DNA of 55,261 bases, from positions 1-55,261 of the forward strand of contig LVAT01000021.1 in the NCBI GenBank assembly GCA_001604135.1. Direction: 5' to 3'. Positions 42,886 through 46,365 of the stretch are shown piece after piece. Each line of letters begins with the position of its first letter. The stretch's first letter is position 1. The position numbers were made by a program, and so were the translations under genes. The notes beneath the pieces were generated by a model. That model saw only the letters and a list, made by a program, of their open reading frames with translations, was not told where the DNA came from and searched no databases. The DNA comes from Clostridiales bacterium Firm_14. Its GTDB lineage: Bacteria; Bacillota; Clostridia; Saccharofermentanales; Saccharofermentanaceae.

Positions 42886-42961
42886 TGGTGGCTCACTGGA
42901 GGTTCGAACTCCAGACCCCTTGATTAAAAGTCAAGTGCTCTACCGGCTGAGCTAGTGAACC
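42886..42961 (-). tRNA. tRNA-Lys (anticodon TTT)
   Basis: A full cloverleaf can be read on the minus strand: acceptor GGTTCAC/GTGAGCC, anticodon loop CTTTTAA (TTT), T arm with GGTTCGA on the other strand pattern, discriminator A and encoded CCA. Third gene of the His-Gln-Lys operon. Confidence 0.96.
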
Positions 42962-42964
42962 ATT

Positions 42965-43039
42965 TGGCTGGGGTGGCAGGATTTGAACCTACGAATGCGG
43001 GAGTCAAAGACCCGTGCCTTACCCCTTGGCTACACCCCA
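42965..43039 (-). tRNA. tRNA-Gln (anticodon TTG)
   Basis: Acceptor TGGGGTG/CACCCCA, anticodon loop CTTTGAC (TTG), discriminator G and encoded CCA on the minus strand. The loop-closing pair of the anticodon stem is a T-T mismatch, a minor oddity. It starts 3 nt from tRNA-Lys. Confidence 0.95.
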
Positions 43040-43062
43040 GTGATAAGAGGCAATTAAAAAAT

Positions 43063-43140
43063 TGGGGTGGGATATGGGATTCGAACCCATGATATCTAGT
43101 GCCACAAACTAGCGCTCTAACCAACTGAACTAATCCCACC
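43063..43140 (-). tRNA. tRNA-His (anticodon GTG)
   Basis: Acceptor GTGGGAT/ATCCCAC with the extra G at position -1 opposite C73, anticodon loop TTGTGGC (GTG), and encoded CCA. First gene of the tRNA operon. Confidence 0.96.
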
Positions 43141-43351: not shown

Positions 43352-44605
43352 ATGGAAGAAGAATTAACCAAATCCTATATAACAATGCCTAAGGGCTTTA
43401 AAGCCAACGGTGTTTCCGCCGGCATGAAGTGCTCAGATCCTGCCAACATCAACGAGAACGACCCTAAGTCTTCTTACCTCGATGTCGGAATGGTCTATTC
43501 AGATACCTTATGCAACGTTGCCGGCGTCTATACGTCCAACCTCGTTAAAGGTCACTCCCTCGTAAGATCCATCGGCATCATCGAAAACACCGGCAAAGCG
43601 CGAGGCATTATTGTTAACAGCAAAGTCGCTAACGCAGGCGTCGGCGCCATCGGAGTTGAAGATGCTGCAAAAGTAGCAGAATGTGCTTCTTCCCTTCTCG
43701 GCTGCGAGACTTCAGAGATCCTTACAGCTTCTACCGGCGTAATCGGATCCCGTCTCCCGCTGGACAAGATGCTTCCTGTAATTCCTTCTCTGGTCAGCGG
43801 TCTTTCTTCTGACGAAGAAACAGCTCACAACGCCGAATATGCAATGATGACAACTGATACCGTTCCGAAGGAAGTTTCCGCTCAGATCGAGCTTACAGAC
43901 GGCAAGACAGTTACCATCTCCGGCATGGCTAAGGGTTCCGGCATGATCCACCCTAACCTCGCTACAATGATCAGCATCTTCACAACAGACTGCGGCATCG
44001 ATTCCGCTTCACTTAAAAAGATGCTCCAGAAGGCCGTTAAATATACTTTCAACCGCGTTTCAGTAGACGGCGACACATCCGTCTGCGATATGGTCGTAAT
44101 CTTCTCTAACGGCGCCTCAGGCGTTACGATCGAAGAAGGCACTGAAGATTACCAGCTTTTCGAGGAAGCCCTCTGCAAGCTCGCTGAGGACATTGCCAGG
44201 ATGTTAGCAAGTGACGGCGAAGGCGCAACCAAGTTCGTCGAGATCGAAGTTCACGGCGCCAAGGACGAGAAGGACGCCAAGCTCATCGTTACATCCGTCG
44301 CCAGATCCCCTCTCTGCAAGACAGCTTTCTTCGGCGAGGACGCCAACATCGGCCGTATCCTTACGGCAGTAGGCTACTCCGGTGCTATGTTCGATCCCGA
44401 GAAGGTCGACATTCACTTAAACGGATTGCTCATGTACAAGGACGGCGCTGCCGTTGCTTTTGATGAAGATGAAGCATCCCGCTTGCTCTCCGAGCACGAC
44501 CTCAAGGTCGACATCACCCTCTACGAAGGCGACGCTTATGACAGAATGTTCACCTGCGACTTCTCTTATGATTATGTAAAGATCAACGGAAGCTACAGAA
44601 CTTAA
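43352..44605 (+). CDS. argJ: Bifunctional ornithine acetyltransferase/N-acetylglutamate synthase
   Basis: This 417-residue ArgJ is a self-cleaving N-terminal nucleophile enzyme: KGSGMIHPNLATMI contains the cleavage-site nucleophile Thr at about residue 205, which becomes the first residue of the beta chain. FTTDCGID and SRSPLCKTA-like (ARSPLCKTAFFGED) segments match the family. It moves the acetyl group from N-acetylornithine to glutamate in arginine synthesis. AGAGG lies 9 nt upstream of the ATG. It is monocistronic here, without argC or argB neighbours. Whether it can also start the cycle with acetyl-CoA is not visible from sequence. Confidence 0.95.
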   Translation: MEEELTKSYITMPKGFKANGVSAGMKCSDPANINENDPKSSYLDVGMVYSDTLCNVAGVYTSNLVKGHSLVRSIGIIENTGKARGIIVNSKVANAGVGAIGVEDAAKVAECASSLLGCETSEILTASTGVIGSRLPLDKMLPVIPSLVSGLSSDEETAHNAEYAMMTTDTVPKEVSAQIELTDGKTVTISGMAKGSGMIHPNLATMISIFTTDCGIDSASLKKMLQKAVKYTFNRVSVDGDTSVCDMVVIFSNGASGVTIEEGTEDYQLFEEALCKLAEDIARMLASDGEGATKFVEIEVHGAKDEKDAKLIVTSVARSPLCKTAFFGEDANIGRILTAVGYSGAMFDPEKVDIHLNGLLMYKDGAAVAFDEDEASRLLSEHDLKVDITLYEGDAYDRMFTCDFSYDYVKINGSYRT

Positions 44606-44627
44606 GGATCATTGTTCTGAAATCATC

Positions 44628-44670
44628 AAAGCCCACTTAGATGCTGATTTGGGGTCATCAAGTGGGCTTT
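44628..44670 (+). terminator. argJ terminator
   Basis: A perfect 11-bp stem AAAGCCCACTT/AAGTGGGCTTT (44628-44638 and 44660-44670) with an inner GATG/CATC pair and a terminal T run on the plus strand, 23 nt after the argJ stop. It is also the first unit of the hairpin array. Confidence 0.88.
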
Positions 44671-44963
44671 TCACATACAACGTTTAACAAAGGCACACTA
44701 AATACCTACTTCGAACACGATTTTGCCTTTCAGGTAGGTTTTCCTTCTTAAGCAATAAATCGAAGAAGCACTAAAATACCTACTTAGATTAAGTTTTTTG
44801 ACTATAAGTAGGTTGTCTTCAATTCTTGTTCAACATATGCGGCTTCAAAAATACCTACCTAAACCCCATTTTTCTTATCTAAGTATGTAATTTATCACTC
44901 TAGAGCGATAAAACGACCTCAGAAGAACCTACCCAAACTCCATTTTTGTCCTCCAGGCAGGTA
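44631..44963. repeat. Five tandem diverged hairpin units, period 73-75 bp
   Basis: Left arms of the type (A/G)CCYACYY begin at 44631, 44704, 44778, 44853 and 44927. Each is followed 28-30 bases later by a matching right arm (for example ACCTACTTA 44778-44786 with TAAGTAGGT 44805-44813, perfect). Loops are T-rich. Unit 3 and unit 4 stems have mismatches. The spacers between units are not clearly alike. The spacing and arm similarity indicate duplication of one hairpin element. Confidence 0.75.
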
Positions 44964-44986
44964 TTTTGCCCAAACCACAAACAAAA

Positions 44987-45008
44987 GGCTGCACCATGCG
45001 GTACAGCC
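44987..45008 (-). terminator. Trigger factor terminator
   Basis: GGCTGCACC/GGTACAGCC arms (44987-44995 and 45000-45008), 9 bp with one wobble and a 4-nt loop, followed on the minus strand by TTTTGTTTG. It lies 29 nt after the tig stop. Confidence 0.88.
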
Positions 45009-45036
45009 TCTAAAAGTTAACTTAAAGTTTTAAGGA

Positions 45037-46365
45037 TCACTCCTCAGTCTTAGCCTCTTCAGCGGGTGCCTCGGGCTCCTTGGGCTCAACCTTGACTGCC
45101 TTGGATGCGAGATACTCAACAGTCTTGCGAGCGCGGATGGAATCCTTGATGAATGCGGAATCTTCGCCGATGGACTTCTTAACTTCCTCAACGTCGATCT
45201 TGTACGTGTTAGCGATCTGAGCGAGCTCTTCGTTGTAATCCTCGTCTGTAACCTCAGGATCGATCTTCTCTGTGATCTTCTCGATAACGAGTGAAGACTT
45301 AACTCTTACGCGTGCCATGGGCTCAAGAGATTTCTTGAACTCGTCCATGCTCTGGCCTACATACTGGAGGTACATGTCAAGAGCGATGCCCTGGTTGGAC
45401 ATACGGGCTGCCTGATCGTCAGCCATCTGCTCTACTTCGTTCTGAACCATTGACTCAGGGATGTCGATCTCGCAGTTGTCGCATACGGCGCGGACTGTCT
45501 CGTTCTCGAAAGCAGCCTTGTTGTCCTTGTCAGCTCTCTCCTGCTGCTTAGCTCTTACGTCAGCCTTAAGCTCGTCAAGTGTATCGAACTCCGAAACGTC
45601 CTTAGCGAACTCGTCGTCAAGCTCAGGAACGATCTCTGTCTTGATTGCGTGGATCTTTACGTTGAATGTAGCGTCAGCGCCCTTGAGGTCTTCTGCGTGA
45701 TAGTCTTCAGGGAACTTAACTTCGATAGTGAATTCCTCATCAACGTTGTGGCCTGCAACCTGCTCCTCGAAGCCGGGGATGAAGGACTTGGAACCGAGCT
45801 TTAAGTTATAGCCCTCGCCCTTGCCGCCTTCGAAAGCAACGCCGTCCTTGAAGCCTTCGTAGTCGATGGTAACTGTGTCGCCTTCCTGTGCTGCACGGTC
45901 AGTAACTTCCTCGAGAGAAGCATTTCTCTTTCTCATGCGCTCGATCTCAGCGTCAACGTCCTCGTCTGTTACAACCTGATCCTTGAAAGGAACTTCAACG
46001 CCCTCATACTGACCAAGCTCGAACTCAGGCTTTACGTAAACTGTGATAGTGTACTTGATGCCGTTCTCGTTGATGTCAGTAACATCCATCTCAGGTCTGG
46101 ATACAACCTTAAGGTCGTGCTCCTTAACTGCTTCAGGATACTGAGTATTTGCGATCTCGTTCATAGCGTCCTCATAAAGTACGCCCTCACCGTAATACTG
46201 GCAGACAAGCTGATAAGGAACCTTGCCCTTACGGAAGCCGGGAACCTGGAAACGGTTCTTGTTCTTGTTGTAAGCCTTCTTTAAGGCTTCGTTCCACTCT
46301 TCCTTGCTTGACTCAAGGCTGATTACTACCTGAGAGTGTTCTTTCTTCTCAATTGTGGATGCCAT
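45037..46365 (-). CDS. tig: Trigger factor
   Basis: This 442-residue ribosome-associated chaperone and peptidyl-prolyl isomerase has an N-terminal ribosome-binding loop GFRKGKVP at 43-50, a FKBP-like domain around residues 150-245 (DTVTIDYEGFKDGVAFEGG, FIPGFEEQVAGH) and a helical C-terminal domain, ending in an acidic tail of Glu/Pro/Ala. The length is normal for the family. It stands alone with its own promoter and terminator; clpP and clpX, often neighbours, are not in the window. GGAGG precedes the ATG. Confidence 0.96.
   Translation of the reverse strand: MASTIEKKEHSQVVISLESSKEEWNEALKKAYNKNKNRFQVPGFRKGKVPYQLVCQYYGEGVLYEDAMNEIANTQYPEAVKEHDLKVVSRPEMDVTDINENGIKYTITVYVKPEFELGQYEGVEVPFKDQVVTDEDVDAEIERMRKRNASLEEVTDRAAQEGDTVTIDYEGFKDGVAFEGGKGEGYNLKLGSKSFIPGFEEQVAGHNVDEEFTIEVKFPEDYHAEDLKGADATFNVKIHAIKTEIVPELDDEFAKDVSEFDTLDELKADVRAKQQERADKDNKAAFENETVRAVCDNCEIDIPESMVQNEVEQMADDQAARMSNQGIALDMYLQYVGQSMDEFKKSLEPMARVRVKSSLVIEKITEKIDPEVTDEDYNEELAQIANTYKIDVEEVKKSIGEDSAFIKDSIRARKTVEYLASKAVKVEPKEPEAPAEEAKTEE

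Follow-up and report, generated by a model that had tools for sequence, protein, structure and literature searches.

A palindrome array between argJ and tig and its helically spaced counterparts in related rumen bacteria

The palindromic units between argJ and tig

The window analysed here, a 55,261-nt stretch of DNA from Clostridiales bacterium Firm_14, carries five intergenic palindromic units at 44631-44962, with the convergent genes argJ and tig (trigger factor) on either side (Table 1). The closest named tig is that of Saccharofermentans sp. Tb.RUG.504 (98%), and three clustered tRNA genes (Lys, Gln, His) lie on the minus strand at 42886-43139. Unit 1 begins 25 nt past the end of argJ, and the start-to-start distances along the array are 73, 74, 75 and 74 bp. 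This bears out an earlier note on this DNA, which had described five hairpins with a 73-75 bp period 3' of argJ and had remarked, again correctly, that the spacers between them differ. The stem of unit 1 is unlike those of units 2-5.

Table 1. Features at the argJ-tig locus (window coordinates; arms of the array units are 8 nt long)
Feature	Coordinates	Strand	Description
argJ, upstream neighbour	43352..44605	+	ORF; PF01960, E 8e-134
Unit 1	44631..44667	no strand	stem GCCCACTT/AAGTGGGC; 21 nt between arms; 3' flank TTTTCACA
Unit 2	44704..44739	no strand	ACCTACTT/AGGTAGGT; 20 nt between arms; 3' flank TTTCCTTC
Unit 3	44778..44813	no strand	ACCTACTT/AAGTAGGT; 20 nt between arms
Unit 4	44853..44888	no strand	ACCTACCT/AAGTATGT; imperfect; 20 nt between arms
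Unit 5	44927..44962	no strand	ACCTACCC/AGGCAGGT; imperfect; 20 nt between arms
Terminator-like hairpin of tig, outside array	44984..45011	-	terminator scan
tig (trigger factor), convergent neighbour	45037..46365	-	ORF; PF05697 and PF05698

When the 406-nt region was folded, none of 100 shuffles matched it on either strand (z of -3.73 on the plus and -6.95 on the minus strand). The minus strand folds more strongly than the plus strand; unit 4 does not fold on the plus strand (0.0 kcal/mol) and reaches -5.2 kcal/mol on the minus strand, and the corresponding energies of unit 5 are -4.0 and -13.6 kcal/mol. When the region was used as a blastn query on its own genome, other copies turned up on contigs C5 (E 4e-9), C10 (E 7e-6 and 1e-5), C13 and C16. 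Since no shuffle folds as well as the region and copies of it occur elsewhere in the genome, the five-unit palindrome array is beyond chance.

A terminator scan of window positions 44560-45080 made a single call, the tig hairpin. An intrinsic terminator is marked by a G+C-rich stem, a loop of 3-8 nt and a U-tract; the loop limit, which the scan applies, excludes the array units, which have ~20 nt between their arms. The 3' flanks of units 1 and 2 are T-rich (4/8 and 5/8 T, respectively), and unit 1 is possibly the argJ terminator. Known structured RNAs were rejected as candidates, as the four Rfam matches in 44400-45200 all fell below the gathering score.

Related arrays in the same genome and across the genus

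We built a covariance model from 27 units, to which it fits by construction, and searched the window's own genome (G000) with it. Eight clear arrays of 2-7 units each were found, on contigs C5, C7, C10 (at 63, 70 and 150 kb), C13, C16 and C21, the window contig; weaker places lie on C10 at 206 kb and on C12 at 120 kb. Two other repeats were seen on C13 of this genome, one of them a short array that resembles CRISPR and has the same arms and a period of 66 (L228 3319-3500, at ~343.3 kb), the other a palindromic tandem repeat with a period of 36 (L212 15693-15765, at ~35.7 kb). The covariance search in relatives, a check proposed in the earlier note, matched 10 of 59 genus genomes, own genome included, at E 1e-4 or better. 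Stems around the matches in relatives read ACGTAC, ACTTAC, ACCGAC, ACCCAC, ACCTAC or GCATAC, and the units there are 34-37 nt long with a central run of A or T. A motif-based scan of 32 loci yielded 106 units in 23 chains of at least two units, after 25 lone matches had been dropped and with ~5 degenerate units, visible in the sequences, missed; these loci represent one word class because they were brought in by the covariance model. Words are grouped in blocks inside single arrays, and the arm-to-arm distance belonging to a word is nearly constant within a genome. Over 400 kb of G005, roughly 10 different words were counted, and a mirror-repeat control there gave 5 links.

Of the 59 listed tig matches, 30 loci were examined; argJ adjoins tig in 14 of them, and arrays occupy the site in 7 of these 14 (G000, G005, G008, G032, G020, G025 and G033), those of G020, G025 and G033 being recognised by eye. 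The words at this site are TTGTATCGAAAAC in G005, TACTTGA in G008, GTGTCGG in G032, TACGGACTAA/TTAGTACGTA in G020 and GAACGGC-type in both G025 and G033, amounting to about six different words over seven species. Best self-match lags lie near the helical lattice described below in G005 (104, twice 52), G032 (53), G020 (73), G025 (62) and G033 (64); the best lag of the G008 repeat is 44 bp, which does not fall on the lattice, and its 10.5-bp power is 1.8. At the remaining 7 of the 14 sites, which are 85-196 bp long, no array was seen by eye. Arrays with different words were also found on the 3' side of metF in G027, G059 and G079, with metF assigned through PF02219 on the first 60 residues. Two of the tig matches (G019:C7:6892-8199 and G037:C1:447875-449173) contain one internal TGA each.

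The arrays mostly adjoin gene 3' ends. Using a crude ORF finder, we called both neighbours for 19 arrays. Nine of these have convergent neighbours (one neighbour doubtful), nine have tandem neighbours and one has divergent neighbours; 3 more arrays are without one neighbour. In the G005 sample, 12 arrays fall into 7 tandem, 3 convergent and 1 divergent regions and 1 ORF call, against a background of 75 tandem, 17 convergent and 28 divergent intergenic regions. The orientation of the A-run relative to the neighbouring genes is mixed, and no rule was found.

We then consider whether paired RNA is what the arms preserve. Arm wobbles oriented by the A-run number 18 GU and 25 AC, and those oriented by the genes of nine tandem-gene contigs number 14 GU and 9 AC. 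Within 28 blocks, right halves shuffled among units pair about equally well, and the blocks hold 28 compensatory versus 242 one-sided changes. Four zones compared with shuffles in these blocks gave p values of 0.25, 0.07, 0.98 and 0.73, none of them significant, although the zone tests are low in power because arm variants are under-sampled. Alignment A1 (27 units) has 45 double-change cells versus 24.8 in shuffles (0/500), a signal that sits between stem families, whose stems change in a paired way from one family to another; two other covariation measures on A1 are no better than shuffles (229/500 and 307/500). With this signal lying between families and no significant departure from shuffles within blocks, we rejected covariation as proof of pairing. 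Because the wobbles have no clear strand preference and within-array compensation is not significant, these data lend no support to an RNA structure. The inverted symmetry of the arms is real, but there is no sign that selection acts on a single RNA hairpin. The idea of a multi-hairpin RNA 3' end is not supported on these same two points.

That the arrays are bidirectional terminators in tandem, or 3' structures of RNAs that end between transcription units, is in our estimate quite improbable. Such elements would agree with the 3'-end position of the arrays, with the place of unit 1 just past the argJ stop, with the T-rich tails of units 1 and 2, and with mean hairpin energies that are better than those of shuffles in 11 of 11 family-genome groups. 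Against them stand the ~20 nt between arms, the lack of a clear G-U preference, a 10.5-bp linker lattice that RNA does not need, and the few units with at least 5/8 T in several groups. Such units make up at most 40% (plus strand) or 56% (minus strand) in any of the 11 groups; in G027 and G070, the ACGTAC and ACTTAC groups have 0 to 8% of them on the plus strand and 0 to 17% on the minus strand. The suggestion of expanded terminators keeps the T-rich 3' flanks at units 1 and 2 on its side, but 4 of the 11 groups are nearly without such flanks.

Unit spacing, linker phasing and predicted curvature

The 106 units of the 23 model-found arrays give 83 distances from centre to centre, of which 81 depart from a whole multiple of 10.5 bp by no more than 1.5 bp, where 29% would be expected. 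The distances cluster at ~52, 63, 74 and 84 bp; the two that miss the lattice measure 40.0 and 60.5. As the spacing is near a whole number of 10.5-bp turns, the units would lie on the same helical face.

We also used a word-free detector that requires only similar inverted arms of any sequence. In 1.96 Mb from 23 genomes it placed 40 of 49 links on the lattice, or 35 of 43 when one previously known array is removed; counted among the 49 links are those of a CRISPR-like array and of several other simple repeats. The stretches ran sequentially along contigs, several of which were chosen because they were already in hand, and one included the known array. Over the same 1.96 Mb a mirror-repeat control gave 19 links, 15 of them in two genomes, with 5 on the lattice. 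The word-free links come from 9 of the 23 genomes, the other 14 having none in 40-80 kb each. As a check of breadth, 479 kb from 72 other Clostridia-wide tig loci (L066-L137) yielded 3 inverted links versus 1 mirror link, and 400 kb from G037, G040 and G049 yielded 6 versus 3 mirror links, a single tandem repeat accounting for 5 of the 6 inverted links. The E. coli sucB-sucC BIME, the one BIME taken as an intended positive control, was negative for the lattice (10.5-bp power 0.08).

Two phrases of the earlier note, that the hairpins look selected or duplicated as units and that they may form a protein-binding array, fit whole-turn spacing. Such spacing could serve cooperative binding in a sequence-specific operator array, with a dimeric protein for each word family, an account that we regard as unlikely. 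In its favour, arm letters 1-6 are constant within blocks (pairwise identity 0.99) while loops and flanks vary (0.40-0.48), each word keeps its near-constant arm-to-arm distance within a genome, and unit-level compensation is not significant. The 0.99 identity is partly there by construction, because four arm letters decided which units were grouped as a block and detection itself required motif and pairing, and the ten or so words in 400 kb of G005 would need many proteins. Substitution rates by zone in three related arrays were 0.11 and 0.06 for arms, 0.17 for loops and 0.22 for linkers; the alignment fails at one end and these rates were left unused.

In relatives the lattice extends into the DNA between units. 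Across 79 linkers, each trimmed by 5 nt on both sides, A+T density has a 10.5-bp oscillation that is in phase with the unit centres (0/2000 shuffles), the phase relative to the flanking centres being +0.03 and -0.20 bp. The same oscillation is seen in 71 non-redundant linkers (0/1000) and, by genome, in G027 and G070 together, G059 and G079 (0/1000 each) and G032 (1/1000); it is borderline in linkers that are not 36-40 nt long (54/1000). No phasing was detected in the 21 linkers of the window's own genome (602/1000 shuffles as high) or in the window's four linkers (404/1000). The window copy may therefore be weakened, since its own genome shows the unit lattice only and no linker phasing.

Mean 10.5-bp power over 28 arrays (17 model-found and 11 hand-picked) is 11.6, versus 1.07 in their flanks, and drops to 1.29 at 10.0 bp and 1.27 at 11.0 bp. 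The window array has a power of 5.35, equalled or exceeded by 12 of 1467 non-overlapping window segments, and three G005 arrays are low (1.0, 0.5 and 2.3). In 13 of 13 model-found arrays of at least 4 units the best period within the 9.5-11.6 range is 10.45-10.60. The signal is carried by AA/TT (19.4) and not by TA (1.1). Harmonics of a tandem repeat could fake a peak at 10.5 bp; this is countered by the flatness of other periods and by the linker-only test, which was made on mostly unlike sequences.

Because the A+T-rich positions of their linkers share the 10.5-bp lattice, the arrays of relatives are predicted to be curved, and a wedge model predicts more bending than in flanks and shuffles for 28 of 28 arrays. 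Phased AA/TT segments are not special to arrays: those with at least 2 palindromes number 22 of 41 in the G005 sample and 4 of 22 on C13 of G000 and, in other families, 0 of 17 in G037, 0 of 5 in G040 and 2 of 15 in G049. Two G005 segments (C1 129780-130010 and 277395-277615) have strong 10.5-bp AA/TT phasing and recurring CCGACAA-like words, with no palindromes counted.

Known repeat families and a proposed DNA-level reading

The nearest known kind is the REP/BIME class. According to PMC2817692 and PMC3733652, these are palindromes of 20-40 bp outside genes that in some cases form clusters with regular spacing; they are species-specific and prefer sites between unidirectional or convergent genes. 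The arrays here resemble them as extragenic palindromic units of 34-37 nt, with 106 units in 23 arrays over the genus. They differ in that the GT(A/G)G head beside the palindrome was not seen on inspection, GTAG occurring within the right arm of ACCTAC-type words and GTACG, GTAAG or GTCGG standing there in other words, and in the 10.5-bp lattice, which is absent from the one E. coli BIME tested. The Y1 (RAYT) transposase domain PF01797 had no match in the array-bearing genomes G000, G005, G008, G020, G032, G070 and G079; it matched in array-bearing G059 (E 7e-41) and G002 and as two short fragments in G027, and in 16 of 59 genomes overall. We rejected RAYT/REP membership on the seven array-bearing genomes without a match, though the other three have one.

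The scattered Y1 matches in G059, G002 and G027 (fragments), together with words that are uniform in blocks and different between arrays and species, would suit a neutral or selfish palindrome minisatellite, in which slippage and template-switch correction copy the arms and curvature is a by-product. We find this account very doubtful, as template switching leaves unexplained both the A/T phasing of unlike linkers and the 10.5-bp spacing across unrelated words.

A TIGR-Tas array has a 36-nt unit and a Tas protein with a Nop domain; it was rejected, with the Nop domain PF01798 in 0 of 21 genomes. CRISPR arrays are defined by near-identical direct repeats, unrelated spacers and cas genes; in the arrays here the arms repeat and the 20-nt middle varies. 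For DNA gyrase, PMC6379681 reports an E. coli motif of phased ~10-bp G/C variation, attraction of the enzyme downstream of transcribed genes, and gyrase cleavage sites in BIME-2 elements. Strong gyrase sites are marked by phased ~10-bp composition extending over about 130 bp; compared by description, the arrays may have such phasing in common with them (mean power 11.6 over the 28 arrays, the window linkers being unphased); the arrays differ in consisting of palindromic words in tandem. They are also like helical-period A-tracts in their AA/TT periodicity near the helical repeat (PMC516772 and PMC3940949). In E. coli that periodicity is mainly intergenic (PMC516772), with a period of 11.3 +/- 0.4, unlike the arrays, which are sharp at 10.5 bp over up to 600 bp and tied to palindromic units. 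No known family tested fits the arrays. Among open-licence papers we found none on Saccharofermentans arrays of this kind or on helically phased palindrome arrays; the main text of PMC12306157, which tabulates REPs for three Bacillota, does not contain 'clostridi', 'tandem' or 'spacing'.

Set beside the computed geometry and lattice, their presence in many arrays, the turnover of words at orthologous sites and the mostly 3'-end position, our best reading is a BIME-like, fast-turning intergenic DNA element, in which palindromes on the same face would form a platform for bending or wrapping DNA at the 3' ends of genes. Related rumen bacteria have other palindrome sequences but for the most part share this kind of spacing, a sign that DNA shape, rather than RNA, may be what is kept. 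Each unit consists of a short word and its inverted copy on either side of a central run of A or T, and successive units, about a whole number of 10.5-bp turns apart, are exposed on one side of the helix. In relatives the linkers add A+T-rich positions on the lattice, giving a predicted long, intrinsically curved stretch with dyads at regular places. An architectural protein or DNA gyrase may wrap or bridge this phased curved DNA, the array may act as a topological or nucleoid anchor that separates transcription units, and an end unit may sometimes double as a terminator. The wrapping platform is preferred because of the phased motif of gyrase and the gyrase sites in BIME-2. As a whole, a DNA-level element of phased curved DNA, wrapped or bridged by a putative protein and serving as an anchor between transcription units, stands in our judgement just short of an even prospect.

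More tentatively, and at well under even prospects, the arrays might be a bacterial counterpart of satellite DNA: shape-selected intergenic arrays in which words turn over between species but dyads and A-tracts stay on their 10.5-bp lattice, and which would organise supercoiling at 3' ends through same-face nucleoprotein platforms. Helical-period A-tract signals have been argued (PMC3940949) to reflect nucleoid architecture, largely from genome-wide statistics. The arrays described here are discrete and countable and offer natural experiments, in which the same site in close species has different words or no array. Whether DNA shape itself is under selection at gene 3' ends thus becomes directly testable.
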